Assembly: GCA_020832805.1 (NCBI GenBank)
Contig: JAFIED010000269.1
Location: forward strand, 1-33,360
Reading direction: 5' to 3'
DNA: 33,360 nt
Origin: Pararhodobacter sp.
Lineage (GTDB): Bacteria > Pseudomonadota > Alphaproteobacteria > Rhodobacterales > Rhodobacteraceae
Shown: one piece after another, positions 701 to 20,761 of the stretch
How positions within the stretch are numbered: position 1 is the stretch's first letter
How the letters are laid out: every line of letters begins with the position of its first letter
Notes under the pieces: generated by a model
Database searches by the model: none
What the model saw: only the letters and a program-made list of their open reading frames with translations
Told to the model about the DNA's origin: nothing
Program-made: the position numbers and the translations under genes

Positions 701-1351
701 ATGACCAGCCAGACCGAAACCATTGTGCGTGCCCTTCATGCCCGGATCGATACCGGCGCGCTGAACCCCGGAGACGAGCTTGACGAGGCGGCGCTGGCGG
801 TCGAGTTCGGGGTTTCGCGCACCCCGGTGCGCGAGGCGTTGATGCGGATCGAGGCGACGGGCCTGCTGCGCCGCCTGCCGCGCCGGGGTGCGGTGCTGTT
901 CAAGCCCACGCTGGAGGAATTCCTGGCCATCCTGGAGGTCCATGCCAAGCTGGAGGGGCAGGCGGCCGGCCTGGCGGCCCGGCGGCGCTCAGTGGCCAGC
1001 GTGCAGCGCATCGATGCCGCGGTGACGGCCTGTGCAACGCATCTGGCCGATCTGGGCGAAACCGCGCCCGATGCCTATTACCAGCACAATCTGGCCTTTC
1101 ACGCGGCCGTGGCCGAGGCGGCGGGCAATCCGTTCCTGCTGGATCACATCAAGACGAACGCGCGCAAGCTGATGGCCTATTATCGCGCGCGTTATGCCTA
1201 TGCGGGCTCGATTGCATCATCGGTCGCCGATCACCGCGCCATTGCCGCGCTGATCGCCGCGCGCGACAGTGCCGGCGCGGAAGAGGCGATGCGCCGGCAT
1301 GTGCAGTTTGACCAGGTAACGGCACTGGATCTGCTGACCGCTCTGGGGTGA
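701..1351 (+). CDS. GntR-family transcriptional regulator (FCD/FadR type)
   Basis: 216 aa from the ATG at 701 (MTSQTETIV). The ORF track starts 16 codons earlier, but that ATG lies upstream of the probable promoter box. The N-terminal winged helix is recognisable in PGDELDEAALAVEFGVSRTPVREALMRIEATGLL, the classic GntR signature. The rest is an all-helical FCD ligand-binding domain with conserved His and Asp/Asn positions (YYQHNLAFH, AGNPFL, DHRAI), which normally bind a metal and a carboxylate effector. It lies upstream of a GATase, P450, ligase and ferredoxin group and shares an AT-rich motif with that group's promoter, so it probably controls it. PipR, the regulator of the mycobacterial piperidine P450 cluster, is also a GntR protein. 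The effector is unknown. Confidence 0.9.
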   Translation: MTSQTETIVRALHARIDTGALNPGDELDEAALAVEFGVSRTPVREALMRIEATGLLRRLPRRGAVLFKPTLEEFLAILEVHAKLEGQAAGLAARRRSVASVQRIDAAVTACATHLADLGETAPDAYYQHNLAFHAAVAEAAGNPFLLDHIKTNARKLMAYYRARYAYAGSIASSVADHRAIAALIAARDSAGAEEAMRRHVQFDQVTALDLLTALG

Positions 1352-1366
1352 CCCGCGGGACGCATC

Positions 1367-1414
1367 AAGCGCCTTGAAGCAAGGCGCTTGCAACGGCCTT
1401 GATACAAGGCCGTT
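1367..1414. terminator. Tandem hairpins between convergent genes
   Basis: Two perfect 9-bp stems with 5-nt loops, two bases apart: AAGCGCCTT/AAGGCGCTT (1367-1389) and AACGGCCTT/AAGGCCGTT (1392-1414). They sit between the 3' ends of the GntR gene and the minus-strand GATase, as expected for a bidirectional terminator. The flanking A/T pairs serve as short U tracts in either direction. Confidence 0.7.
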
Positions 1415-1439
1415 CCAGCGCATCGCTGCACGCATCGGG

Positions 1440-2150
1440 TCAGGAATGGGCCTGGGCGAAAAAGCTGTGAATCCAGCGTGCCATCAGGGCGCTGTGCTCT
1501 GGCCCCTCCAGCCCCGCGCGGGCCTCTTGCAGCACGGCATCGGGCACCGTGCCGACCAGTTCGCCCAGCAGGTCGTCCATGAACGCGCGCGTGATCTCGG
1601 GATGGTATTGGGTGCTGTAGACCCGCGCGCCCACGGCCATCTGACCGACCGGGCAGCCCGCCGTGCCTCCCAGGACACGCGCGCCGGGCGGGGGCTGCAG
1701 CACCTGTTCGTTATGGGCGGCGTGCAGCGCCATCACGGCAGGGGCATCAACCATCCAGGGGCCGGGGCTGTGGTTCGCCGTTTCGGCCCGGCCCAGCACC
1801 CAGCCCTGCGGGTTCGGCCCCACGCGCCCACCCAGCGCTGTTGCCACCGCCTGATGGCCGAAACAGGCGCCAAAGACCGGCACATCGTCTCTGACCGCTT
1901 GCCGGATCAACGCCTTCAGCCGGGTAATCCAGTCGTCATCATGGTTGACCGATGCCGGGCTGCCCGAGATCATCACCCCGTCGAATCCTTGCAGGGTTTC
2001 GGGGAAAACACCCTCTGCCACGCAGAAATCCGTCAACTGCATCCCGGCTGCGACCGGATGCAGAAGCTGTCGGAACTTTTCGGCTTCGCCAGGGTGGCGC
2101 GCGGCCAGGGCCGAGCGGTCGGTGTTGGCGTCAAGAAAGGCGATATGCAT
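1440..2150 (-). CDS. Class I glutamine amidotransferase-like protein (probable gamma-glutamyl hydrolase role)
   Basis: 236 aa from the ATG at 2148-2150 (MHIAFLD). The 490-aa ORF in the track reads antisense through the P450 gene and is not real upstream of this start. An ATG two codons further up is possible. A stand-alone GATase1 domain is shown by the nucleophile elbow FGACFGHQ (Cys96) and the catalytic pair in YHPE (His183, Glu185). There is no synthase domain. Relatives are annotated as type 1 glutamine amidotransferase or GMP synthase-like. It is divergent from the P450 gene with only 72 nt between starts, and a glutamine-synthetase-like gene follows the P450. In aniline degradation an equivalent stand-alone GATase (AtdA2/TdnT type) hydrolyses the gamma-glutamylated amine. 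By analogy this protein may remove glutamate from a conjugate; that is inference. Confidence 0.85.
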   Translation of the reverse strand: MHIAFLDANTDRSALAARHPGEAEKFRQLLHPVAAGMQLTDFCVAEGVFPETLQGFDGVMISGSPASVNHDDDWITRLKALIRQAVRDDVPVFGACFGHQAVATALGGRVGPNPQGWVLGRAETANHSPGPWMVDAPAVMALHAAHNEQVLQPPPGARVLGGTAGCPVGQMAVGARVYSTQYHPEITRAFMDDLLGELVGTVPDAVLQEARAGLEGPEHSALMARWIHSFFAQAHS

Positions 2151-2161
2151 GAACATTCCGT

Positions 2162-2191
2162 TTGCATAAATTATGATGGCAAGAATATACA
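2162..2191 (+). promoter_or_regulatory. Candidate promoter with overlapping operator for the P450 operon
   Basis: TTGCAT (2162-2167) and TATACA (2186-2191) form a sigma70-like -35/-10 pair with an 18-nt spacer, about 30 nt before the P450 start. A perfect 11-bp palindrome, CATAAATTATG (2165-2175), overlaps the -35 box and resembles the motif upstream of the GntR gene. It also lies just upstream of the divergent GATase start, so one bound protein could control both directions. Confidence 0.5.
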
Positions 2192-2222
2192 TTGTTGGCA
2201 GAGCACGGCAAGAGAGGCCCGC

Positions 2223-3479
2223 ATGACCATCTGGCACCCTGACGATGACGGTTTCGCCGATCTGACCGATCATGACACATTTGCACGCGGCGTGCCGCAT
2301 AATACCTTTTCCCGCCTGCGCCGCGAGGACCCGGTCCACTGGACCGACTGGTCTGCGGGGCAGGGGTTCTGGTCGATCACGCGCCATGCCGACATCGAGG
2401 CGATGAACCGTCAGACCGATCTGTTCTCTTCGGCGCGCGGGATCCGGATGGAGGATCAGAGCTACGAGGAATACCTGGCCCGGCGTACCTTTCAGGAAAC
2501 CGACCCGCCAGAACATACCCAGGTGCGCATGAAGCTGGCAAAGGCCTTTTCGAAACCGGTCATGGCCCTGTTCGAGGATCAGATCCGCGATCTGTGCCAT
2601 GGTATTCTTGACACCGCCCTGGAGCAGGGCAGCTTTGACGCGACCCGCGCCATTGCCCGGCAGTTGCCGATGATGATGCTGGGCCGGATCATGGGCACGC
2701 CGGATGCGGATCTGCCCTGGCTGGTGGAAAAGGGTGATGCGCTGATCGCCAATACCGATCCCGATTTCACGGACCATGTGCTGGACCGCATGGAAACCGA
2801 CGCCTATCGCATGATGCCGTTCAACTCGCCTGCGGGGGCAGAGCTTTATGATTATGCCCAGCGTCTGATGGCTGACAAGACAGCGCGCGGCGATACCGAA
2901 GGCGTGCTGCACCTGATCCTGAAACCCGGCGCCGATGGCGCGGTGATCAGCGAGACGGAGTTCCGCAACTTCTTTTGCCTGCTGGTGGCGGCGGGCAACG
3001 ACACCACGCGCTATTCCATCGCCGCCGGCATTCAGGCGCTATGCCATCAGCCCGAATTGCTGGGCCAGATGCAGGCCGGCACCGTCTGGGATACCGCCGC
3101 CGACGAGATCATTCGCTGGGCCACGCCGGCACTTTACTTCCGCCGCACCGCCACGCGCGATGTCGATCTGCACGGCAAGACGATCCGCGAAGGGGACAAG
3201 GTTCTGTACTGGTTCGCCAGTGCAAACCGGGATGAGGCGATGTTTGACCAGCCTTTCCGCGTGAATCTGGCGCGCAGTCCCAACCGGCATCTCAGCTTCG
3301 GGCAGGGCGGGCCGCATGTGTGCCTGGGCATGCATCTGGCACGGTTGGAAGTGCGGGTCCTGTTTCAGGAACTGGCAAAACGCATCAAGACGATCGAGCC
3401 CGCGGGGCCGCACAGGTTCCTGCGGTCGAATTTCGTGGGCGGGATCAAGGAACTGCCGGTTCGCATCGAACGCGCCTGA
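2223..3479 (+). CDS. Cytochrome P450 (soluble bacterial class I type)
   Basis: 418 aa from the ATG at 2223, preceded by AGAGAGG. The track start at 1374 reads antisense through the GATase and is rejected. All P450 landmarks are present: I-helix AGNDTT (257-262), the K-helix ExxR pair in DEIIRW (Glu295, Arg298), and the heme loop FGQGGPHVCLG with Cys367 as axial ligand. The C-terminal RSNFVGGIKELPV and the TPALYFRRTA segment resemble the CYP124/125/142 and linalool-hydroxylase group. There is no membrane anchor, so it should take electrons from a ferredoxin, and one is encoded two genes downstream. No ferredoxin reductase is visible. Context (ligase, GATase, GntR) suggests oxidation of a glutamylated amine, while the sequence resemblance points to branched or terpenoid-like substrates. 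Substrate undetermined. Confidence 0.93.
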   Translation: MTIWHPDDDGFADLTDHDTFARGVPHNTFSRLRREDPVHWTDWSAGQGFWSITRHADIEAMNRQTDLFSSARGIRMEDQSYEEYLARRTFQETDPPEHTQVRMKLAKAFSKPVMALFEDQIRDLCHGILDTALEQGSFDATRAIARQLPMMMLGRIMGTPDADLPWLVEKGDALIANTDPDFTDHVLDRMETDAYRMMPFNSPAGAELYDYAQRLMADKTARGDTEGVLHLILKPGADGAVISETEFRNFFCLLVAAGNDTTRYSIAAGIQALCHQPELLGQMQAGTVWDTAADEIIRWATPALYFRRTATRDVDLHGKTIREGDKVLYWFASANRDEAMFDQPFRVNLARSPNRHLSFGQGGPHVCLGMHLARLEVRVLFQELAKRIKTIEPAGPHRFLRSNFVGGIKELPVRIERA

Positions 3480-3553
3480 AACGGCGCCGCGTCAGGGAAC
3501 AACCAAGGGGCCGGCAGATCCAGCCTGGCCGAAAAACCAACAGGGACAGTATC

Positions 3554-4846
3554 ATGCGCGACAGGCTTCGCTCTTTCTTTTGCGATCATCTTTCCATCAT
3601 GCGGGGCAAGGTACTGCCCGAAGAAAAGATCGGCAGCGGCTATACCCGCTTTGCCCAGCCGAATTTCGCGGTCCATTACGATAAGGACCTGATCATCGAC
3701 GCACCCGGCACCAACTGCATGAACGGACTGCCGGATATGGAACTGCGCTGGCAGGCGCGCGATATCCGACAGGGCTGGGAACCACACACACGGGTGGTTG
3801 TCGGCGATCTGTTCGACCGCGACGGCGCGCCGGTGGCCGTGGCCGGACGCCACGCGCTGCGCCGGGCAGTGGCCGACTGGCAGAAACACGGGCTGACCCC
3901 GGTGGTGGGGCTGGAACTGGAATGCTATGCCTTTACCCGCGCCGAGGATGGCAGCCTGCAGCCCTATGACACACCGGGCGCGGCGGTCTATGGCACCGGT
4001 CCCTTTGCCGATCCGCTGGGCTTCATGGATGCCATCTGGGAGGCGGCCGAAATGGCCGGCTTCCGTCTGGCGCTGATGACCACGGAATACGATGCGCCGC
4101 AGTTCGAATTCACGCTGTGGCATGACGAGGCGCTGCGCGCGGTCGATGATCTGGTCCTGTTTCGCCTGATGGCGCGCGAGATCGCGTTGAAAAAGGGCGT
4201 TCTGCTGACCTTTCTGCCGAAACCCGTGCCGGAAACCGGTGGCTCGGGCCTGCATGTCAATCTTTCCTTTACCGATGGTGCGGGCAACAATGCGCTGTCG
4301 GACAGCCCCGATACCGGGGCCGAGACCATGAACGCCCTGTCGGCGGGCTGTGTGGCGGGGTGGCTGCATCATCATCGTGGGCTTGCCGGGCTGATTGCGC
4401 CCTCGGTCAATTCCTATGCGCGGCTGCAACCGGCCTCGATGTCGGGGTATTGGCGCAACTGGGCGGTCGATCATCGGGGCGTGACCGTGCGCGTGGCGGG
4501 CGAGCCGGGGGCAAAGGCGCGGCTGGAACATCGCATGGCCGATGCCAGCGCCAATCCCTATACGGCCGTTGCCGCCGTTCTGCAGGCTGCGCGGCTGGGC
4601 TATGAAGGGCGCTATGCGCTGCCGCCGGTCGAGGCGGGTGATTGCTTTACCGGCCAGGATGCCAGCGACGGCACCGCCGACAGCCTGACGGGCGCCCTGG
4701 ACGATCTGCAGGCCGATACCGCCCTGCGGGAGGCGGTGGGTACCGATCTGTGCGCCCATCATATCCACATGAAGCGTGTCGAGATCGACAAGACAAAGGG
4801 CATGGATGCCCGGGCGCTGCGTGATTTCTACATCTGGTTCATCTGA
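3554..4846 (+). CDS. Glutamine-synthetase-like gamma-glutamylamide ligase
   Basis: 430 aa from the ATG at 3554; the track start at 3320 lies inside the P450 gene. Glutamine synthetase catalytic motifs are all recognisable: GLELECYAF (metal Glu), TTEYDAPQFEF, FLPKPVPETGGSGLHVNLSF (flap/His), APSVNSYARL and the C-terminal LEHRMADASANPYTAVAA with the glutamate-binding Arg. The N-terminal beta-grasp part diverges from GlnA, and the gene is embedded in a P450 operon rather than beside a PII gene. This fits the GlnA-like ligases that attach glutamate to amines (gamma-glutamylanilide, isopropylamide or methylamide synthetases). It lies 74 nt after the P450 stop and 12 nt before the ferredoxin, so it is co-transcribed. 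An ATP-dependent ligase is strongly supported; the amine substrate is not identifiable. Confidence 0.88.
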   Translation: MRDRLRSFFCDHLSIMRGKVLPEEKIGSGYTRFAQPNFAVHYDKDLIIDAPGTNCMNGLPDMELRWQARDIRQGWEPHTRVVVGDLFDRDGAPVAVAGRHALRRAVADWQKHGLTPVVGLELECYAFTRAEDGSLQPYDTPGAAVYGTGPFADPLGFMDAIWEAAEMAGFRLALMTTEYDAPQFEFTLWHDEALRAVDDLVLFRLMAREIALKKGVLLTFLPKPVPETGGSGLHVNLSFTDGAGNNALSDSPDTGAETMNALSAGCVAGWLHHHRGLAGLIAPSVNSYARLQPASMSGYWRNWAVDHRGVTVRVAGEPGAKARLEHRMADASANPYTAVAAVLQAARLGYEGRYALPPVEAGDCFTGQDASDGTADSLTGALDDLQADTALREAVGTDLCAHHIHMKRVEIDKTKGMDARALRDFYIWFI

Positions 4847-4858
4847 GGGGCGCGCGAC

Positions 4859-5173
4859 ATGAAGGCCAGCTGGATATTACCCGACGGGCGGCGCGTGGAG
4901 GCCCAGGTGCAGCACGGGCGCAGCCTGATGGAAGGCGCGGTCATGGCGAATGTGCCCGGTGTGATCGGCGAATGCGGTGGCACGCTGAGCTGCGCCACCT
5001 GCCATGTGCTGGTCGATGCGGCCTGGCAGGACAAGGTCGAGGCGATCAGCGATTACGAAGACGCCATGCTGGATGCCACCGAGGCACCGCGGCAAGCCAA
5101 CTCGCGCCTGTCCTGCCAGATCTTTGCTGCCGATGACCTGGACGGCATCGTGCTCAGGGTGCCAGGGGCATAA
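4859..5173 (+). CDS. [2Fe-2S] ferredoxin, adrenodoxin/putidaredoxin type
   Basis: 104 aa. The cluster ligands follow the vertebrate-type spacing C-x5-C-x2-C-x37-C: Cys39, Cys45, Cys48 (GECGGTLSCATC) and Cys86 (RLSCQI). This subgroup carries electrons from an FAD reductase to class I P450s. It starts 12 nt after the ligase stop, behind GAGGGG, and is the last gene of the operon. It is almost certainly the redox partner of the P450 at 2223-3479. A matching ferredoxin reductase is not in the window, so a shared reductase elsewhere in the genome must serve it. Confidence 0.93.
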   Translation: MKASWILPDGRRVEAQVQHGRSLMEGAVMANVPGVIGECGGTLSCATCHVLVDAAWQDKVEAISDYEDAMLDATEAPRQANSRLSCQIFAADDLDGIVLRVPGA

Positions 5174-5217: not shown

Positions 5218-5406
5218 GGCAAACCTGCTCCGGATTGCCCGGATCGGGAAGTTTTTCTGACGATAACGGAAAAGACATCCCGTCACTTGTGGCTTTTCAC
5301 ATGCTAAGAGATAGTATCACCGTGACCGGCGCGACGGAAACGCGGCACCGGGACGTTATTCTATGCATTGGCCCAAACGCAGGGGCGCCAGGATGGGACG
5401 GATGAC

Positions 5407-6633
5407 ATGCGGCTGATCGGTCGGATCATCGGGCAGGCGGTCGGGCTTGTCGTTGTGCTGACGATCGGCATTGTTGCCTGGGCGATCTGGTTGCCCTCCT
5501 CGCATCCGCTGCTGGATCGCGTGGGCTTGCTGTCGCCATTGCAGCGTGCCGGTGTGCCCCTGGCGGCAGCACCAGAGGCGGCCGGCGGTGGCCGCGGTGG
5601 GCCGCCGGGCGGCTTTGCGCGCGGTCCCGCGGCCGTGATCGTCGAACCGGCCGACAGCGCCGCATTGCAGGACAGGATTGCCGCCATCGGCACCGGGGCC
5701 GCGCTGCGGTCGGTCGTCGTGGCGCCCGAGGCCGCCGGCCGGGTGGTCGAGGTCGTGGTCAGCCCGGGCGCCTATGTCGAGGCAGGCGAGCTTTTGCTGC
5801 GTCTTGACAGCGCCGCAGAGGAGATTGCGCGCGACCGGGCGCAGATCACCCTGGAGGAAGCGCAGGAAACCGCGCGCCGGGTCGAACGGTTGCGCGAATC
5901 CGGCACCGCCAGCGAAGTGCAGCTGCGCGACGCGTCGCTGGCCCTGCGCAATGCCGAACTGGGCCTGCGCCAGGCAGAACTTGACCTCAGCCGCAGGCGG
6001 GTCGATGCACCGATTTCAGGCTGGATCGGCTTGCTGGATGTCGAGGTCGGGGCGCAGCTTTCCACCACCAGCCAGCTTGCCCGTATCGATGACCGTTCGG
6101 CACTGCTGGTCGATTTTCGCGTGCCCGAACGGATGGTGGGCCGCTTGCGGCCGGGTGACCCGCTGGTGCTGACCCCGCTGGCCCGCCGCGACATGGCGGT
6201 CGAGGGTCATGTGCGCGTGATCGACAGCCGGGTCGATGAAACGGCGCGCAACCTGCGCATCCAGGCCGAGATTCCGAACGAGGATGATTTTCTGCGCGCC
6301 GGCATGGCCTTTGCCATCGAGATGAACTTCACCGGAGACACGCTCCCCGCGGTCGATCCGCTGGCCATTCAATGGAGCGCCGAGGGTTCGTTCGTCTGGG
6401 CCGTGCGTGACGGGCGCGCCGAACGCGTGCCAGTGCGCATTGCGCAGCGTAGCGGTAACCGCGTGCTGCTGCGCGGCGCATTGGAACCGGGCGAAAGCAT
6501 TGTGCTGGAGGGGGTGCAGAACCTGCGACCCGGCGCCGAGGTGGACCCCCGCACGCGCGAGCAGGCACGACCAAACGGTGCGGGGGGTGATGACGCGCAG
6601 GCGCGTGCGCGCCCCGAACCCTCCGAGACGTGA
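5407..6633 (+). CDS. RND efflux periplasmic adaptor (membrane fusion protein)
   Basis: 408 aa from the ATG at 5407 (MRLIGRIIG), with a GGGACGG stretch upstream; the track used a TTG 13 codons earlier. The order is one N-terminal membrane anchor (about residues 5-30), a Gly/Pro-rich linker (GGGRGGPPGG), a split biotinyl-lipoyl domain (APEAAGRVVEVVVSPGAYVEAGELLLRLD and RVDAPISGWIG), a short alpha-helical hairpin between the halves, a beta-barrel (VDFRVPERMVGRLRPGD), and a membrane-proximal domain. The charged tail is probably disordered. It joins the pump encoded 80 nt downstream to an outer-membrane channel. No channel gene is present here, so a TolC-type protein from elsewhere is implied. The hairpin is short, as in the HAE1-like adaptors of alphaproteobacteria. 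Confidence 0.92.
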   Translation: MRLIGRIIGQAVGLVVVLTIGIVAWAIWLPSSHPLLDRVGLLSPLQRAGVPLAAAPEAAGGGRGGPPGGFARGPAAVIVEPADSAALQDRIAAIGTGAALRSVVVAPEAAGRVVEVVVSPGAYVEAGELLLRLDSAAEEIARDRAQITLEEAQETARRVERLRESGTASEVQLRDASLALRNAELGLRQAELDLSRRRVDAPISGWIGLLDVEVGAQLSTTSQLARIDDRSALLVDFRVPERMVGRLRPGDPLVLTPLARRDMAVEGHVRVIDSRVDETARNLRIQAEIPNEDDFLRAGMAFAIEMNFTGDTLPAVDPLAIQWSAEGSFVWAVRDGRAERVPVRIAQRSGNRVLLRGALEPGESIVLEGVQNLRPGAEVDPRTREQARPNGAGGDDAQARARPEPSET

Positions 6634-6713
6634 TGAGCCCCCGATCCGGAAAGCGGCACCGCCGGCTGCCGACAGGATCGCCCGACTGGCCGCCGCGATG
6701 ACAGGAAGACTTG

Positions 6714-9700
6714 ATGACCAGCCCGGTTACTGACGCAAGGACAGAAAACAGCGCGCCTGCCGCTGCGGACAGCGACGAGAACGCCGGCGAAAGCGCCATC
6801 GAGGCGCAGCGTTCCGGCACCGCGCTGTTCATTCGCCGGCCCATTCTGGCCTTTGTGCTGAATGCGCTGATCGTCATTGCCGGTCTGGCGGGGCTTTACG
6901 GCGCCGAGGTACGCGAACTGCCCGATGTCGACCGCCCGGTTGTCACGGTTACAACGAATTTCCCGGGTGCCGGCCCGCAAACCATTGACCGCGAACTGAC
7001 CAGCACCATCGAGGGCGCAGTGGGCCGGGTGTCTGGCGTTCGCGCAATCTCGTCGGAATCACGTTTCGGCCGCAGCCAGGTGACGGTCGAATTCGACGAC
7101 AATGTCGATATCGACGTGGCCGCGACCGATATCCGCGATGCCATCGGCCGTGTTCGCAACAACCTGCCCGACGACATTCAGGAACCGCGCATCGTCAAGG
7201 CCGATGCCAATGCCGACGCGGTCATGCGTATCGGCGTCACCTCCTCGGGCCGGTCGGTGCAGGATCTGACACGGCTGGTACAGGATGTGGTCGAAGACCG
7301 GCTGATCTCGGCCCCCGGCGTGGCGGATCTGCAGGTCTTCGGGGGCCGCGATGCCGTGTTTCGCGTGGATGTCGACATGCAGGAACTGGCCAGCCGCGGC
7401 CTCAGCCTGGCCAATATTCGCAATACGCTGCGCAATGTGTCGTTCGATGTGCCGGCAGGGCAGTTGGCCACCGATCTGCAATCGATCTTCGTGCGCACCA
7501 CCGCCACGGTCGAAACGCCAGAGGATTTCGAGGCGCTGGTCGTGCGTGGCCAGACCCTGCTGGGCGATGTGGCGCAGGTGACCCTGGGGCCGGCACCCGG
7601 CGAAAGCATCCTGCGCGCCAACGGGCAAAGCGGCATCGGCATCGGCATCATCCGGCAGGCAACGTCGAACACGCTGGACATTTCCGATGCCGTGCGCGCC
7701 GTCATCGACGATCTGCAGGGTATTCTGCCCGATGACGTGCGGATCTTCGTCACCTCGGACGAGGCAACATTCGTGCGCGGCGCCATTACAGAGGTGGTCA
7801 AGACGCTGGGCATGGCGCTGCTGATCGTGGTTGGCATCATCTATCTGTTCCTGCGTGATGCGCGTGCCACGCTGATCCCGGCGCTGACCCTGCCCGTGGC
7901 CCTGATCGGCACATTGGCAGCCATCTGGCTGGCCGGTTTCTCGGTCAATGTGCTGACACTTCTGGCGCTGGTGCTGGCCACGGGCCTGGTGGTCGATGAC
8001 GCCATCGTGGTGCTGGAAAACATCGTGCGCCGCCGGGGGCAGGGCATGGGCGCGCGTGCCGCCGCCGTTCTGGGCACCCGGCAGGTGTTCTTTGCCGTAG
8101 TCACCACCACCGCCACGCTGGCGGCCGTCTTCGTGCCGCTGTCCTTCCTGCCCGGTCAGACCGGGGGCCTGTTCCGCGAATTCGGCTTTACGCTGGCCAT
8201 GGCCGTGCTGATTTCCTCGGTGGTGGCGCTGACGCTGTGTCCGGTGCTGGCCAGCCGGTTGCTGCGCCCCATGCCCGACACACCGCCCCGCGGTCCGATG
8301 GTCTGGCTGGGTGACCGGCTGGCCGGGCTTTATGCGATCAGCCTGCGCGCGGCGCTGGCGCAACCGGCGGCAGTTGTTGCGGCGGCGGCGCTGTTCGGGG
8401 TGACGGCGCTGTTGCTGACCACGCAGATTCGTCAGGAACTGACCCCGCGAGAGGATCGCGCCGTGGCGCTGCTGTCGATCAGCGCGCCGCAGGGTGTATC
8501 GCTTGATTACCTGAACCAGCGGATGCAGGACATCGAGGCGCTGGTCGCCCCGCTGCAAGCCTCTGGCGAAGTGACCAACCTGTTTTCGATCGTCGGCACC
8601 GGCGGGCGGGCCAACCGGGGCTTCATGGTGCTGACCCTGGCGCCCTGGGATGAACGCGCGCGCAGCCAGGATCAGATCGTCGGACAGATCAACGCGGGGC
8701 TGCGCCAGATCGTCGGCGTGCAGGCCTTTGCCATCCAGCCCAACTCGTTGCGCATTCGGGGTGCGGGGCGCGGGTTGCGGTTTGCGCTGGTGGGCGAAAG
8801 CTATGAATCGCTGGCCCGGCAGGCCGAGGCGCTGGTCGACCGGATGCGCGAGAACCCGGCATTCGGGCAGGCGCAGCTCAGTTTCGACACCACGCAGCCC
8901 CAGCGGTTCATCGAGGTCGATCGCCGCGCGGCTTCGGATCTGGGTATCCAGATCGACGGGTTGGCCGAAGCGCTGCAAGCGGTGCTGGACGGGCGGTCAC
9001 TGGGCAGCATCTTCATCGAGGATCGAAGCTTCGATATCACCATGCTGTCCACCGGCAACCCGGTCCGCGATCCGGGCGATCTGGAACGGGTCTTCGTGAT
9101 GGCCTCGAACGGGCAGATGCAGCCGCTGTCGGCCTTTGTCACGCTGGAGGAACGTGCCACGGCACCGGAACTGACGCGCGAGGCCCAGATGCGGGCGGTC
9201 GAGATCACGGCACCGCTTACCCCCGATTTCGCGCTGGGCGATGCCTTGGCCGAGGTGCAGCGCCTTTCGGGCGACCTGCTGGAACCGGGAACGCGCGTCG
9301 TGCCGCTGGCCGAGGCGACAACGCTGGATGAAACAACCTCGGGGCTGCTGATCACCTTCGGCTTTGCCCTGCTGGTCGTTTTCCTGGTCCTGTCGGCACA
9401 GTTCGAAAGCTTCGTCTCGGCGGTGGTGGTGATGGCCACGGTACCCCTGGGGCTGGCCTGCGCGATCTTCGCGCTGATCCTGACGGGGGGCAGCCTGAAT
9501 GTGTATTCGCAGATCGGTCTGGTATTGCTTGTGGGGATCATGGCCAAGAACGGCATCCTGATCGTCGAATTCGCCAACCAGCTGCGCGACCGGGGTGCCT
9601 CGGTCGCCGAAGCGGCCTATGGCGCGGCGACGATCCGTCTGCGGCCGGTGATGATGACCATGGCCTCGACCGTGCTGGGCGGGGTGCCGCTGGTCATGTC

Positions 9701-9908
9701 TGTCGGCGCCGGGGCCGAGGCGCGCGAGGCGTTGGGCTGGGTGATCGTCGGCGGGCTGGGGATGGCCGCCTTGTTCACCCTGTACCTGACACCCGTGGCC
9801 TATGTCATGCTGGCCTGGATCAGCAAGCCGAAATCGACCGAGGCCGCACGCCTGTCGCGCGAGCTTGACGCGGCGCTGACGCCGGGCGGGCGCACGCCGG
9901 CCGAATAA
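6714..9908 (+). CDS. RND efflux pump, inner-membrane permease (AcrB/HAE1 family)
   Basis: 1064 aa, typical AcrB-family length, from the ATG at 6714 behind GGAAG. The first 40 residues are a polar cytoplasmic extension before TM1 (RRPILAFVLNALIVIAGLAGLYG). The protein has 12 membrane spans in two repeats, each followed by a large periplasmic porter loop. The proton-relay Asp pair sits in TM4 (LVVDDAIVVLENI, Asp428/Asp429), and GIMAKNGILIVEFANQLRD in TM10 carries the conserved Lys. It uses proton flow to expel hydrophobic compounds from the periplasm. It forms an operon with the adaptor upstream. Substrate specificity cannot be read; its place after a P450 module could mean export of a toxic substrate, but a separate transcription unit is more likely. 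Confidence 0.95.
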   Translation: MTSPVTDARTENSAPAAADSDENAGESAIEAQRSGTALFIRRPILAFVLNALIVIAGLAGLYGAEVRELPDVDRPVVTVTTNFPGAGPQTIDRELTSTIEGAVGRVSGVRAISSESRFGRSQVTVEFDDNVDIDVAATDIRDAIGRVRNNLPDDIQEPRIVKADANADAVMRIGVTSSGRSVQDLTRLVQDVVEDRLISAPGVADLQVFGGRDAVFRVDVDMQELASRGLSLANIRNTLRNVSFDVPAGQLATDLQSIFVRTTATVETPEDFEALVVRGQTLLGDVAQVTLGPAPGESILRANGQSGIGIGIIRQATSNTLDISDAVRAVIDDLQGILPDDVRIFVTSDEATFVRGAITEVVKTLGMALLIVVGIIYLFLRDARATLIPALTLPVALIGTLAAIWLAGFSVNVLTLLALVLATGLVVDDAIVVLENIVRRRGQGMGARAAAVLGTRQVFFAVVTTTATLAAVFVPLSFLPGQTGGLFREFGFTLAMAVLISSVVALTLCPVLASRLLRPMPDTPPRGPMVWLGDRLAGLYAISLRAALAQPAAVVAAAALFGVTALLLTTQIRQELTPREDRAVALLSISAPQGVSLDYLNQRMQDIEALVAPLQASGEVTNLFSIVGTGGRANRGFMVLTLAPWDERARSQDQIVGQINAGLRQIVGVQAFAIQPNSLRIRGAGRGLRFALVGESYESLARQAEALVDRMRENPAFGQAQLSFDTTQPQRFIEVDRRAASDLGIQIDGLAEALQAVLDGRSLGSIFIEDRSFDITMLSTGNPVRDPGDLERVFVMASNGQMQPLSAFVTLEERATAPELTREAQMRAVEITAPLTPDFALGDALAEVQRLSGDLLEPGTRVVPLAEATTLDETTSGLLITFGFALLVVFLVLSAQFESFVSAVVVMATVPLGLACAIFALILTGGSLNVYSQIGLVLLVGIMAKNGILIVEFANQLRDRGASVAEAAYGAATIRLRPVMMTMASTVLGGVPLVMSVGAGAEAREALGWVIVGGLGMAALFTLYLTPVAYVMLAWISKPKSTEAARLSRELDAALTPGGRTPAE

Positions 9909-15495: not shown

Positions 15496-16530
15496 TCAGT
15501 GTCGCTTGCCGGGGAAACGGGTTGTCCTGTTGCCGCGCGGGCCAGTCTGAACCGGGGTGTTCGCCAGGTTTTCCGCCTGCAGCTTGCGCCAGCGTGCCAG
15601 CCGCGCTGGATCAAGCCGACCCGCCGCCACCGCCGCCTGCACCGCGCATCCGGGTTCGTGGTCATGGGTGCAATCGCGAAAGCGGCACAGCGGGGCAAGC
15701 TCGGTGATCTCGGCATAAAGCTGATCCAGACCCGCGGATGAATCGCCGACATGCAGCGCGCGCATGCCCGGCGTATCGATCACCCAGCCCCCGCCGATGA
15801 TCGGATGCAACGAGCGTGCCGTGGTGGTGTGGCGCCCCTTGGCATCGGCCGCGCGCACGCTGCCGGTCAACTGCGCCTCTTCCGGGGCCTTTCCGGACAG
15901 GGTGTTCAGCAATGACGACTTGCCCACGCCTGACGATCCGACCAGCGCGACGGTCTGCCCCTCGGCACACCAGGGCGCCAGACGCTGCGCGGCCTCTGGC
16001 GCATGGGCATTCAGCGCCACAACATGCAGCCCGCGCTGCAGCCCGGCCACGCGGTCGCAATAGGGCCTGGCATCGGGCACCTGATCGGCCTTGGTCAGCA
16101 CGATGACCGGCGTTATCCCGGCTTCATTCGCCAGCGCCAGATAGCGTTCCAGCCGCGCCGGGTTCAGGTCGTCGTTGCAAGAGGTCGTGATGAACAGCGT
16201 ATCGATATTGGCCGCAATCAGTTGCGGATGCCGCCTGCCTTCGATGTGGCGATGCAGCACCGACTTGCGGTCAAGTCGGCGCACCAGCAGCCGGGTTTCG
16301 GGCTGGACAAGAACCCAGTCGCCAACCGCATGATCGGCGGTATTCGCATGGGCAGGCAGGGTCAGCCTGACAAGGCCCTGCCGGGAGATCGCCGTCATTC
16401 TGGCACGATGAACGGTCGCTATGCGCAGCCGGTCTAGATGCGCTTCGTCGGGCTTCACTTGATCGGCAAGAAACCCTGACCAGCCAAGGCTGGCGAGTGC
16501 GGGCAATTCTGGCGTCAAAGGGTCGGACAT
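15496..16530 (-). CDS. rsgA: Ribosome small-subunit-dependent GTPase A
   Basis: 344 aa from ATG 16528-16530 (MSDPLTPEL); the track's upstream start has no support. It is a circularly permuted GTPase: OB-fold remnant (GDWVLVQPETRLLVRRLDRKSVLHR), then G4 LTKAD (145-149), G1 GSSGVGKSS (198-206) and G3 DTPG (252-255). A zinc finger CxxxxCxHxxEPGC (282-296) follows. RsgA/YjeQ checks late 30S ribosome maturation by GTP hydrolysis. The C-terminus is basic, as needed for rRNA binding. It is separated by 230 nt, including a hairpin, from the ATPase gene upstream. The N-terminal region is somewhat longer than in E. coli-type members. Confidence 0.93.
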   Translation of the reverse strand: MSDPLTPELPALASLGWSGFLADQVKPDEAHLDRLRIATVHRARMTAISRQGLVRLTLPAHANTADHAVGDWVLVQPETRLLVRRLDRKSVLHRHIEGRRHPQLIAANIDTLFITTSCNDDLNPARLERYLALANEAGITPVIVLTKADQVPDARPYCDRVAGLQRGLHVVALNAHAPEAAQRLAPWCAEGQTVALVGSSGVGKSSLLNTLSGKAPEEAQLTGSVRAADAKGRHTTTARSLHPIIGGGWVIDTPGMRALHVGDSSAGLDQLYAEITELAPLCRFRDCTHDHEPGCAVQAAVAAGRLDPARLARWRKLQAENLANTPVQTGPRGNRTTRFPGKRH

Positions 16531-16678
16531 GCCGGTCTGAATGCGCGCGTTGGCCGCCCGATGCAAGCCAAACCGAAGCGCCGCGTCAGCCAGGGGGCCC
16601 TTTGGCAAGCAAGCGGCGCCGCTGCCATGTCGATACGCGGGCGCGCCGGGCAAGACACGGCCAAAGCCCGCCAGACAA

Positions 16679-16713
16679 GGCAGATCCCGCAACGCAATGC
16701 GGCGGGATCTGCC
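16679..16713 (-). terminator. Hairpin terminator of the minus-strand ATPase gene
   Basis: Perfect 12-bp inverted repeat GGCAGATCCCGC/GCGGGATCTGCC with an 11-nt loop, about 50 nt downstream of the ATPase stop. On the minus strand it is followed by a weak T-containing stretch (TTGTCTG). The rest of the 230-nt gap (16531-16760) holds no gene I can support. Confidence 0.65.
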
Positions 16714-16760
16714 AATGTGGCCGGAAGTGCATGACGAGACAGCATGACACGGCCGTGTCC

Positions 16761-18962
16761 TTACGCGCTGGCCAGCTTGCCCAAAAGGGTGCGCCACAGA
16801 GCCTTGGTCTCGTCAGCCAGCCGTGCCGGACCTGCGTCCAGCATCTTGCGGCGCATGCGCTCTGCCAGCTGGAACCGCCAGTCTTCGGGCAGGATGATGC
16901 CTTCGGCATGGGCCCATGCCAGCGCCTGGGCAACAAAGGGCCGTCCGGCGACAAAACTATCGGCAAACAGACGCTCTGGCCTGCGTTCCACCCGGTCCAT
17001 CTGAACCGCCAGTTCGTCGGCGGGGAACAGATCTTCCACGGTGCTGTCCTGACGCCTGGTGATGCCCTGCAGAAGGATGACATCGTTGCTGTCAGACAGT
17101 CTGCCCGCCAGCGCGCGCCCCTGCTCTGAGCCATCAAGCACCAGTTTGGGCGACCGGGTCTGGGTTTCGCTCAGCAGGCGCGCCATGACCTGCATGACCT
17201 CGGCACCACAGGCAGGGGCAAAGATCATGTCGCGCTGCGGCATGAACTGGCCAGAGGCAATGCTCAGGGTCTTGATGACGCTCAGGTAGGTCTGCTCGAC
17301 CCGGCCCTGCACCAGCACGGGCTGTGCCCCGCCCATGCTGACCTCGGCCACCGCCAGATTGAGGGCGGCGCGCACGGCAAAGCCGGCACCACGCTGGCTG
17401 TCGCTGCCCTCGGCCTCCAGCAGATCACCGCTGACCCGGGTCGAGCCATCACGACCGACAAACACCTTGCGCGCCCGCGCCAGACGGTCGGCATCGACCA
17501 GAAAGGGCGAATGCGTGGTGTAAAGTATCTGGTTCTTCAGTGCCAAACCCTCGAAAAACGCTGACAGGTCACGCTGTGCCAGCGGATGCAGCGAATGCCC
17601 CGGCTCATCCAGCAGGAGGATGCAGTTGTCATGCGCCCCCTCGGCCTCGTGCAGAAAGACCAGAAAGAAGCTGAGAAACCATTGCAGCCCGGTCGAGCGG
17701 TGCTCAAGCTCGACCTCCTGCGGGCGGCGCGCATCGGCCACCCAGATACGAAAATGGGTGCCGTCGGCCTCGAACCGGAAGCGGTAGTCGCCCTGTTTCC
17801 ACCAATCGGCAAATCTTGCGGTCAGTTTGGTGCCCGCCGATTGCAGCAGGATAGAGCGCGTGCGCTTGGATTCCGCGATCTGGGCCAGGAGCGCGGAATC
17901 GGGCTGCTGGTCACGGCCGTTGGCGCGCCGCCACAGGCTGCGCACCAACCCGGCCTTGCCCTCTTCGGCGATCATCTGCGCCTCGGCCTCGTCGCGGATG
18001 TCCCGGAAATCACGGCCCAGTTCCAGTATTTCCTGCGCCTGCACGCCGACAAAATCGAACAGCACGCTTAGCGTGCGGGCTTTCGCGCTTTCCTTTGCGC
18101 CAAGATCCGCGCGGCCCATGTTGTCCACGACATGCGGCAGGTAGATCTCCGAGTCCAGGTTCCCGTAGTTCGAATAATACACGAACCGGGGCAGACGTTC
18201 GATCACCGCCTGGCGTATCTCCTCTCTCGCGGCCGGGTCTGGGGCAATCATCGCGGCCATGTGCTGACCCAGCGCTTTCTGCAACGCCCGCAGCAAGGGG
18301 ATGACATGGCTGGTGGCAGGCGGCTCTTCCGGGATCAGCGCCGCCACGCAATTGCGGGCCAGACGCAGGTCATTGCCGGTCACGTTCTCTGTGCGTGTCA
18401 GTTCGTCCAGCAGCACGTCAACCTGCTTGGCGGCTGCATCGCACAGCGGGTCGGTGGTGATGGCGCCCAGGTCCTTTTGCGCATCGCGCAATGCTGTCAG
18501 CGCGGCAGCGACCGCGCCATCCTCATCCAGCCTGTAGTCAGGAAAGTTGATCCGATAAGTGCCGTCATAGAGCCGCGCCACAGACACGCAGCGCGCCTGT
18601 GCCACGGGAATGCCGGCAAGCTGGGCAAGGCGCGCGGCCTCCTGGCCGGTGTCGAATTCCGCCGTGATGAACTGAAACTGGTCTGGCGCGTTGCGGATGG
18701 TGGTGAACAGGGCCTTGGGATAATCCGATGTGGGCTGCAGCATGCCTTCGCCCGCGGGGTTCAGTTTCCACAAGGGCAGCAGCAGATTGGTCTTACCGGA
18801 TTCGTTGACGCCAATCAGGGCCGTCACCGTGTCGGCGTGCAGCCAGCCGGAATCCATGACCGACCGGAAGTTGCTGACGCGATAGCGCAACAGCCTGAAA
18901 CCGGCCTGTGCAGGCGCCGGGGTGATGCGGGACGAAATCTTGAACTCGGTTTCCTGAAGCAT
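16761..18962 (-). CDS. OLD-like ABC ATPase with degenerate TOPRIM domain
   Basis: 733 aa from ATG 18960-18962, supported by GGAGA eight bases upstream; the track start 12 codons earlier lacks this. The N-terminal ATPase is of ABC/SMC type: Walker A GVNESGKT (51-58), a signature-like STGLQ (about 423), Walker B CILLLDEP (Asp452/Glu453), D-loop SLHP and H-loop TTHSPF. A long insertion (about 150-400) separates the Walker motifs. The C-terminal part follows a TOPRIM layout (PVLVQGRVEQ, APACGAEVMQVMARLL, KLVLDGSEQG, VEDLFP). The metal-binding residues are altered: the EG motif reads QG (Gln552) and DxD reads DGS (Asp610, Ser612). OLD proteins act in phage defence or DNA repair. This copy may bind DNA or signal rather than cut. 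It starts 35 nt after the antiporter operon on the same strand. Confidence 0.82.
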   Translation of the reverse strand: MLQETEFKISSRITPAPAQAGFRLLRYRVSNFRSVMDSGWLHADTVTALIGVNESGKTNLLLPLWKLNPAGEGMLQPTSDYPKALFTTIRNAPDQFQFITAEFDTGQEAARLAQLAGIPVAQARCVSVARLYDGTYRINFPDYRLDEDGAVAAALTALRDAQKDLGAITTDPLCDAAAKQVDVLLDELTRTENVTGNDLRLARNCVAALIPEEPPATSHVIPLLRALQKALGQHMAAMIAPDPAAREEIRQAVIERLPRFVYYSNYGNLDSEIYLPHVVDNMGRADLGAKESAKARTLSVLFDFVGVQAQEILELGRDFRDIRDEAEAQMIAEEGKAGLVRSLWRRANGRDQQPDSALLAQIAESKRTRSILLQSAGTKLTARFADWWKQGDYRFRFEADGTHFRIWVADARRPQEVELEHRSTGLQWFLSFFLVFLHEAEGAHDNCILLLDEPGHSLHPLAQRDLSAFFEGLALKNQILYTTHSPFLVDADRLARARKVFVGRDGSTRVSGDLLEAEGSDSQRGAGFAVRAALNLAVAEVSMGGAQPVLVQGRVEQTYLSVIKTLSIASGQFMPQRDMIFAPACGAEVMQVMARLLSETQTRSPKLVLDGSEQGRALAGRLSDSNDVILLQGITRRQDSTVEDLFPADELAVQMDRVERRPERLFADSFVAGRPFVAQALAWAHAEGIILPEDWRFQLAERMRRKMLDAGPARLADETKALWRTLLGKLASA

Positions 18963-18997
18963 GGCTAGGTCTCCTTTTCGCAAACTGGGATCGGACA

Positions 18998-20761
18998 TCA
19001 GGGTTCAAAGTAAGGGGGCAGCATGTGCCCGGGTGGGTGCGCGGCACCGGGTTGCGCCGCAGGGGGCATGGCCGCTTCGCCACGCAGGCTGCCGCCTGCC
19101 TCCAGCAGCAAGGTCAGCGCGATCAGGCCGGCAATTGCCGTCTGGCCAAGCCGCCAGCGCATGGCGGTTTCGCCTATGGCCTTTGGCATGGCATGAGCCA
19201 GCCTGCGGGCTGCGCGGCGCTTTGCGGCCAGTATGCTGTCTGCCCGCAGGGCCAAGGCACGGCCCGGCGCTGTGATCTGCGCCAGGAAAACCGCCGGGCC
19301 AATGCGCTGCGCATGCGCGTGGATGGCGACGCCAGCAGCCATGGCGACACCCAGTGCGACAGGCCAAAGTGCACCTGGCGCTGCCTGGCTGATCGGCGCA
19401 GCCAGCGTACCGGCAACGGCGACCCAGACCAGGGGCAAGGCCAGCGACGCGCCGACCAGCGCCAGAAAGGGCAGCAGAACCGCCTCTTGCGTGACCTTTG
19501 CAGGGGCCCCGGGCGGGTGAAGCCAGATCATCGCGACATAACGCGCCATCAGCAGGGTTGTCGCCACGCCGGACAGGCTCAGCGCGACGGTCAACCACGG
19601 CAGCCAGACGGGCGAGCCGGCGTTGAAGGCGGTCTTCAGCGCCTCCTTGCCCAACGCCCCCGAACTGGCGGGCAGACCGGCCAGGACGAATGCGGGCAAC
19701 AGCAGCGCCAGCGTGACGGCCAGTTTTGCCGCAGGGCCGGTCTGCGCCGCAAAGGCACCGGTGCCCAGAAACAGCGCGCCCTTGGCCAGCGCATGATGCG
19801 CAGCCAGAAAGACAAGCACGGGCAGAATGGCCACCCATGCCTGGGGCACCATCAGCCCCGCGCCCAGCCCCAGCGCCAGGATGCCCATCTGGCTGACGCT
19901 GGAATAGCCCAGCACCGCCTTTGGACTGGTCTGCTGCACACCCAGCAGCAGCGCGGCAAAGATCGTCACCATGCCGGCCGCCATCATGACCGTGCCATGG
20001 TCGGCATAGGTGACACCGCCCAGCGGCAAAAGCGTGATCATGCCAAACAGCCCCGCCTTGATCATGGCACCGGAAAGGACGGCGCTGGCCGGCACTGGCG
20101 CGGCCCCATGGGCAGGCGGCAGCCAGAAATGCAGCGGCATGATGCCCAGCTTGACGCACAGGCCGATCATCATCAGTGCAACCGCCGGGTCCGACAGCGC
20201 GGTCGCGCGCAGATCGGCCACATGAAACGACCCCGCCTGTGCCACGGCCAGTGCCAGCCCGGCAAACAGCGCCAGTTCGCCCAGTACGACAAAGCCGATA
20301 TACAGCCGCGCAGCGCCCTGTGCCTGTGGGGTACGGCTGTGCAGTACCAACCCGTAAGAGGCAAAGCTCATCGGCGCGAAAAAGGCATAGAAGCTTGCGG
20401 CATCCAGCGCCAGCAGCAGCCCCAGATTGCCTGTCTGCGCCATCAGGAACATGACGCCGAAGCTGGTGGCGCGCGCGTCATGGCGCATCCAGTGGCGCGC
20501 ACTGGCCCCGGCGGCGCACCACAGCAGGCCGGTGAAGATCACGAACAGGCGCGAGATTTCATCAAGTCCGAACTGAAGGCCAAGGATCATCCAATCAGCC
20601 TGCGCGTGCATCGGCAAATCGCCCAACAGCGCCAGTGCCAGCGCAGGCAGGGGCGCAAAGGGCATCATCCGCCAGACAAGGCTGCGTGCCTGTGGCCAGA
20701 TCAGCGCCAGGGCCAGCAAAAGCGGCAGCGCCAGGGCGGTCACAAAGGGGGCAAGGCTCAT
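18998..20761 (-). CDS. Third proton-conducting Mrp/NuoL-like antiporter subunit
   Basis: 587-aa polytopic protein of the proton-conducting transporter (NuoL/M/N, MrpA/D) family, with about 14 membrane helices. Conserved parts include the TM7 region VKLGIMPLHFWLPPAHGAAP with its Lys, and GAMIKAG and SSVSQMG. The TM5 position that holds the key Glu in the two sister subunits (FYE, MIE) reads FFA here (Ala129), so this copy may not translocate protons in the usual way. The C-terminal 120 residues are a basic region (ILAAKRRAARRLAHAM) followed by one hydrophobic segment and a Pro-rich end, unlike MrpD. It is the last antiporter gene, 3 nt after the A-type subunit. It may be a structural or regulatory partner. 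Confidence 0.85.
   Translation of the reverse strand: MSLAPFVTALALPLLLALALIWPQARSLVWRMMPFAPLPALALALLGDLPMHAQADWMILGLQFGLDEISRLFVIFTGLLWCAAGASARHWMRHDARATSFGVMFLMAQTGNLGLLLALDAASFYAFFAPMSFASYGLVLHSRTPQAQGAARLYIGFVVLGELALFAGLALAVAQAGSFHVADLRATALSDPAVALMMIGLCVKLGIMPLHFWLPPAHGAAPVPASAVLSGAMIKAGLFGMITLLPLGGVTYADHGTVMMAAGMVTIFAALLLGVQQTSPKAVLGYSSVSQMGILALGLGAGLMVPQAWVAILPVLVFLAAHHALAKGALFLGTGAFAAQTGPAAKLAVTLALLLPAFVLAGLPASSGALGKEALKTAFNAGSPVWLPWLTVALSLSGVATTLLMARYVAMIWLHPPGAPAKVTQEAVLLPFLALVGASLALPLVWVAVAGTLAAPISQAAPGALWPVALGVAMAAGVAIHAHAQRIGPAVFLAQITAPGRALALRADSILAAKRRAARRLAHAMPKAIGETAMRWRLGQTAIAGLIALTLLLEAGGSLRGEAAMPPAAQPGAAHPPGHMLPPYFEP

Follow-up and report, generated by a model that had tools for sequence, protein, structure and literature searches.

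What would bring a glutamine synthetase (GS)-like ligase, a cytochrome P450 and a glutamine amidotransferase (GATase)-like hydrolase side by side in a bacterial genome? The question is raised by contig C192 of Pararhodobacter sp. (JAFIED010000269.1), which is spanned entirely by the stretch analysed here (33,360 nucleotides, hereafter the window) and belongs to a genome of 3.75 Mb in 300 contigs that is ~90% complete. Positions 701–5173 of the window encode a GntR/FCD-family regulator, a class I GATase-like hydrolase, a class I bacterial P450, a GS-like ligase and a putidaredoxin-type [2Fe-2S] ferredoxin. A preliminary description, made from the sequence alone, had placed these five families together in a divergent layout, and coordinates, strands and Pfam domains all agree with it. 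Our answer, for which we regard the case as evenly balanced, is that these genes are a single catabolic unit that feeds the homoprotocatechuate (HPC) pathway, its substrate being tyramine or a closely similar arylethylamine, monophenolic or methoxylated.

The unit is conserved well beyond this genome. We screened 298 Rhodobacteraceae genomes, nearly all from different genera. The ligase (called at E <= 1e-80) is encoded by 61 of them and the P450 (E <= 1e-120) by 59, and all 59 are ligase carriers (Fisher p ~1e-60); the two genes are inherited as a unit. Of 61 ligase loci retrieved with their flanks, 57 had the P450, 44 a GATase, 35 a GntR gene and 33 the ferredoxin; in the Rhodobacteraceae sample, 37 of 40 loci had the P450 and 36 a GATase. 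GATase and ferredoxin varied more than did ligase and P450. The preliminary description would have been refuted by neighbours that are not conserved together in related genomes; this tally and the nesting of the P450 within ligase carriers show that they are. The nearest named relative of the window ligase, 89% identical, comes from a Pararhodobacter metagenome-assembled genome (MAG). Outside the family, the unit occurs in Oricola, Gellertiella, an uncultured Rhizobium and a gammaproteobacterial MAG, and a P450-GS pair is carried by a Novosphingobium plasmid.

In a tree with GlnA, GlnT, PuuA, IpuC, DcaQ and paralogues, the window family forms its own clade (100/100), with long branches that leave the deep order unsure. 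It stands apart from GlnA and GlnT; grouping with them would have refuted the preliminary description. The metal- and glutamate-binding residues E129, E131, E212, E220, H269, R321, R339, E357 and R359 are conserved across all 63 relatives, in every one of which the flap Glu327 of GlnA is replaced by Leu or Met; the same position holds Tyr in PuuA, Trp in IpuC and Leu in DcaQ. The loss of the flap glutamate suggests that a hydrophobic amine acceptor is favoured. A GS fold with catalytic residues kept and the ammonium/flap site altered is the pattern of GoaS-type enzymes, for which an extra N-terminal motif 15 is a further criterion (PMC11335346). The GS-like enzyme is accordingly proposed as a putative gamma-glutamyl-amine synthetase. 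Claims on GS residues Asp50 and Tyr179 were dropped, since the alignment there is ambiguous and small shifts alter the answer.

By eye, the GATase triad motifs GACFGHQ and YHPE (Cys-His-Glu), the heme loop FGQGGPHVCLG, I-helix AGNDTT and ExxR motifs of the P450, and the ferredoxin cysteine pattern C-x5-C-x2-C...C are all intact. The best PDB matches of the P450 are a reconstructed-ancestor CYP125 followed by CYP126, CYP125, CYP268 and CYP124. Those of the ferredoxin are putidaredoxin and terpredoxin, both partners of P450s, and the ferredoxin is proposed to be the electron donor of the P450; no reductase gene adjoins it or the five-gene unit in the window. Of the references tested, DcaT from the chloroaniline plasmid pTB30 comes nearest to the GATase (39% over 155 aa), whose proposed role is to free glutamate from the gamma-glutamyl product. 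No NCBIfam equivalog scored over its cut-off for any of the five proteins.

The substrate is suggested by what lies around the unit in other genomes. Clustering of the neighbours revealed that roughly half of the loci share another conserved module, consisting of a class III transaminase, an IclR regulator, TctC/B/A of a tripartite tricarboxylate transporter (TTT), a PuuC-like aldehyde dehydrogenase (ALDH; 558.8 bits to PuuC, under its cut-off) and a Tm-1-like protein. Other ligase loci carry HPC genes. In locus L071, HpaD (410.8, cut-off 321.4) and HpaE (749.1, cut-off 638.35) pass curated cut-offs of TIGRFAM quality, and HpaF, HpaG and HpaH are recognisable, each under its cut-off; locus L114 has a LigB-type HpaD_Fe (447.1, cut-off 315.95). 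HpaD is found in 53 of the 61 ligase carriers versus 44 of the 237 non-carriers (odds ratio 29, p = 2e-23), and the class III transaminase in 59/61 versus 63/237. Among transaminase carriers, HpaD accompanies the ligase in 52/59 genomes, versus 34/63 of those without it (p = 5e-5). The number of genomes in which two of these genes lie no more than 20 kb apart is 11 for ligase and HpaD, 26 for ligase and transaminase, and 23 for transaminase and HpaD. The gene order in L101 and L102 is HpaF-E-D-G-H(-I)-GntR-GATase-P450-GS, and TctCBA-ALDH-Tm1 adjoins HpaFED in L107, L110 and L129. In the window genome the full IclR-transaminase/TctCBA-ALDH-Tm1 module is on C134 and HpaF-E-D on C275; with these and the P450 unit on separate contigs, the incomplete assembly cannot show their linkage. 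The association of the unit with the transaminase/ALDH/TTT module and the HPC genes suggests that the substrate is an arylethylamine, for example tyramine. Independent support for the ring-cleavage link comes from Novosphingobium EMRT-2. There the neighbours of the P450-GS pair include a LigB-type extradiol dioxygenase, wrongly annotated as catechol 1,2-dioxygenase, together with an FAA hydrolase and a pair of aldehyde dehydrogenases, of which one is 41% identical to HpaE.

Two side observations concern these genes. At L098:11679-12536, Pfam assigns the gene annotated as catechol 1,2-dioxygenase to the LigB-type extradiol dioxygenases, and it is probably misannotated. Ligase copies without an adjacent P450 occur in L074 (G274), L073 (G146) and L055 (G069), next to a TctCBA set in the first two and to a transaminase in L055, and the ligase may also act apart from the P450.

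In genomes lacking the ligase, transaminase-TctCBA-ALDH-Tm1 stands beside HpaR-HpaFEDGH (L156-L162), with no P450. The occurrence of this island on its own implies that neither deamination nor ring cleavage depends on the P450 unit. The islands often hold an aromatic amino acid decarboxylase whose best PDB match is DOPA decarboxylase (7xin, 368 bits); such homologues lie within HPC operons both with and without the P450 unit (L071:4465-5865, L104, L108, L109, L111, L112, L127, L128). Some islands have a class III enzyme whose nearest PDB entry is a phospholyase (5g4i, 397 bits); it lies next to an APH-type kinase (L129:3413-5637, L107, L108, L110, L157, L161), and the two look like a pair for a beta-hydroxy-amine, noradrenaline or octopamine for example. 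Given the decarboxylase and phospholyase genes, a catecholamine is the probable substrate of the island. Carriers of the P450 unit are a subset of the island carriers, which is what one would expect of a unit that supplies the island with its substrate. The flavin hydroxylase HpaB is present in 28/298 genomes and in only 7/53 of the HpaD-bearing ligase carriers; most of these carriers would need another source of the catechol. Taken together, these points make ring hydroxylation of gamma-glutamyl-tyramine the simplest proposal.

Gene content, conservation, co-occurrence, adjacency and the ligase active-site pattern were observed directly; from them we infer, in the following scheme, each of the reactions, the substrate and the position that the P450 attacks. 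The GS-like ligase would couple glutamate to the amine, most likely tyramine; the P450 with its ferredoxin would oxidise the amide, converting gamma-glutamyl-tyramine to gamma-glutamyl-dopamine and so making the catechol; and the GATase would cleave this to glutamate and dopamine. The class III transaminase and PuuC-like ALDH would then convert dopamine to 3,4-dihydroxyphenylacetate, the ring of which would be cleaved and degraded by HpaD and the remaining Hpa enzymes. The five-gene unit would thus be a front end, with the TctCBA transporter, transaminase, ALDH, IclR, Tm-1-like protein and HpaDEFGH(I) as the rest of the pathway. The parts of this scheme differ in strength. That a ligase, a P450 and a hydrolase act in turn on an amine is probable. 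The sequence of glutamylation, P450 oxidation and hydrolysis had been put forward in the preliminary description, and it stands as an inferred route, in line with the ligase residues and the published reading of the TC1 ipu cluster considered below. That the amine is an arylethylamine feeding the HPC pathway is somewhat favoured. Hydroxylation of the tyramine ring by the P450 is a tentative assignment, and slightly more tentative still is the idea that this P450, as a tyramine 3-hydroxylase, would act solely on the gamma-glutamyl conjugate, with dopamine as a catabolic intermediate for a catecholamine island (DOPA, dopamine and perhaps noradrenaline via the phospholyase).

Several observations weigh against the tyramine scheme. 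HpaB is equally rare in both groups (21/237 non-carriers, 7/61 carriers) and occurs in 5/34 island genomes without the ligase; because non-carriers lack HpaB as often, its absence does little to support the P450 step. Eight ligase carriers have no HpaD, and 44 of the 237 non-carriers have it. TTT transporters usually carry carboxylates, not amines. The Fisher tests take genera as independent, the use of about one genome per genus being the only control for kinship. A motif found upstream of the P450 (see below) could not be extended convincingly to the upstream regions of the transaminase, TctC or Hpa ring-cleavage genes, and no convincing regulon emerged. Finally, eight loci from Ruegeria TM1040, Leisingera and their kin (e.g., L097, L083, L085) have paa genes nearby instead, with paaA no more than 10 kb away, which would fit phenylethylamine. 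This last point favours another aromatic amine, namely phenylethylamine, a beta-hydroxylated amine (octopamine) or a methoxylated one on which the P450 would be an O-demethylase. The phospholyase and APH kinase genes of some islands (e.g., L107, L129) would suit beta-hydroxy-amines. However, paa neighbours are limited to a few genera and phospholyase genes are also found in islands without the P450 (L157, L161), and we consider a different aromatic amine unlikely.

A little less likely is that the P450 attacks the carbon next to the nitrogen. Such N-dealkylation would replace an amine oxidase and convert a gamma-glutamyl-arylethylamide to an arylacetaldehyde and glutamine, in parallel with the Puu pathway, the P450 standing in for PuuB; the membership of a PuuC-type ALDH in the linked module is consistent with this. 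Yet the linked transaminase already deaminates and is found with the ALDH and HPC genes where there is no P450, and N-dealkylation would need no hydrolase, whereas the GATase is kept in 36 of the 40 sampled loci.

Use of an aliphatic or cyclic amine, as by ipu (isopropylamine) or pip/mor (piperidine, morpholine), would make the HPC link coincidental. The enzyme types do match those of the TC1 ipu cluster, but the identities are just 28% for the ligase and 26% for the P450, the ferredoxin is of another type and the association with HpaD is strong, making this explanation improbable. An early idea of a cyclic-amine or Puu-like diamine substrate was abandoned once the HpaD link appeared. It is very improbable that the ligase is a genuine GS, serving nitrogen assimilation or regulation, whose neighbours have nothing to do with it: the Gln-synt_C fold would allow it, but its tree position, the flap Glu lost in 63/63, the nesting of the P450 entirely in ligase carriers and the presence in the window genome of at least five further GS-family genes, one of them GlnA-like on C213, all argue otherwise.

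The features of the locus are collected in the following table.

Table 1. The five-gene unit and associated sequence elements in the window.
Feature	Position	Strand	Basis
Motif copy TCTGCATATTTAT upstream of gntR	672–684	−	Score 18.4; resembles the P450 promoter element of relatives
GntR/FCD-family regulator	701–1351	+	Pfam FCD and GntR over gathering score
Class I GATase-like hydrolase	1440–2150	−	Pfam GATase 61.8 bits, over gathering score
Divergent intergenic region	2151–2222		Promoter-like TTTGCA-N17-AATATA at 2161–2189
Class I bacterial cytochrome P450	2223–3479	+	Pfam p450 over gathering score
GS-like ligase	3554–4846	+	Pfam Gln-synt_C 221 bits, over gathering score
Putidaredoxin-type [2Fe-2S] ferredoxin	4859–5173	+	Pfam Fer2 over gathering score

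GATase and P450 are divergent and separated by 72 bp, and the gaps of 74 bp between P450 and ligase and 12 bp between ligase and ferredoxin suggest an operon-like arrangement of these three genes. From its position, the GntR/FCD protein is a putative local regulator and would control the five-gene unit. A simple dyad scan for its operator gave no clear palindrome, the promoter-like element alone standing out. In relatives the element upstream of the P450 reads TTTACATATTTAT...TAATATAC and is above threshold (12.3, the 98% background level) in 38 of 56 upstream regions; the window copy is degenerate and scores 10.7, under that threshold. The motif copy upstream of gntR, over the same threshold, hints at possible autoregulation, but such a copy is present in only 6 of 40 gntR upstream regions. 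The scan for the P450-element motif also brought up a palindrome, TTAACATGTTAAT, upstream of HpaF in L108, L109, L113, L124 and L129, possibly the operator of the adjacent gene for a MarR-type regulator (HpaR).

Elsewhere in the window, a ~40-C run near the contig end (103–143) is probably an assembly artefact, and reading frames that overlie it are untrustworthy. A small cupin on the minus strand (152–550; 177.9 bits versus a 140-bit NCBIfam cut-off for (R)-mandelonitrile lyase) adjoins gntR and is absent from the conserved neighbours. Immediately downstream of the unit is an HlyD/AcrB-type RND efflux pair (5368–9908, by eye), an adjacency not kept in relatives. Further on, and also read by eye, a large ATPase on the minus strand (16761–18998) with the AAA/ABC-type P-loop GVNESGKTNLL resembles OLD-family proteins and lies beside an RsgA-like GTPase (15496–16797).

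About one fifth of the sampled genera of Rhodobacteraceae, a family abundant in the sea, carry the unit. If the tyramine scheme is correct, it would account for the use of tyramine-like amines without the usual flavin hydroxylase, give a function to the transaminase/TTT/UPF0261 module and add an aromatic branch to catabolism by gamma-glutamyl tagging. Strains with the island only should then use dopamine, and only those with the P450 unit tyramine, providing a clean natural comparison.

How does the unit compare with known systems? The aniline and chloroaniline systems (tdn, atd, dca) share the GS-like ligase followed by a GATase, DcaT being the reference nearest to the window GATase. Their oxygenase is a Rieske dioxygenase, whereas 701–5173 contains a P450 and no Rieske gene, and the ligases are on separate branches. 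The piperidine genes have a GntR regulator, PipR. The pip/mor genes and their Gulosibacter relatives have a P450 and ferredoxin with a glutamine synthetase nearby (PMC9477822), a likeness to the window in gene types; a CYP151-type P450 is a mark of their pathway, and their substrates are cyclic secondary amines. The Puu pathway of Escherichia coli shares the GS-type ligase and class I GATase hydrolase, and the linked ALDH and transaminase are 48% and 26% identical to PuuC and PuuE, respectively. Puu uses the flavin oxidase PuuB where the window has a P450 and ferredoxin, and the window-type parts are spread over three modules. PuuB was not found among the conserved ligase neighbours, no genome-wide search having been made. 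A further comparable system is an adjacent GS-P450 pair on a Streptomyces canus plasmid (35% ligase and 40% P450 identity; sister to the window clade, 86/92), accompanied, unlike the window, by a short ferredoxin and an FAD reductase.

The preliminary description had taken the set for an undescribed hybrid of aniline and piperidine genes. This is overtaken by A. aurescens TC1, where the same enzyme types are already combined: two ipu clusters with IpuC, P450, ferredoxin and reductase have been reported, in which the P450 is proposed to oxidise gamma-glutamyl-isopropylamide before an amidotransferase hydrolyses it (PMC6776027). In the sequence of plasmid pTC1 from Paenarthrobacter aurescens TC1 (CP000475), the GATase, P450, ferredoxin, reductase and ipuC are in a row. 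The clustered GATase, P450, ferredoxin and gamma-glutamylamide synthetase are thus shared between the window and ipu (TC1 pTC1; Pseudomonas KIE171). However, the TC1 ferredoxin, 68 aa long, is unrelated and has a cysteine pattern unlike that of the window [2Fe-2S] type, a reductase adjoins it, and the TC1 GATase (pTC10065) has no detectable match to that of the window. The window unit would work like the ipu set, but with ligase and P450 identities as low as those given above it is not its orthologue. A bacterial gamma-glutamyl-tyramine/P450 route was not found described in the open-licence literature, and the TC1 ipu cluster has no HPC link. The link to the transaminase module and HPC genes is new relative to the described clusters. 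The gene combination resembles one already described, but its probable substrate and the pathway linked to it appear to be new.

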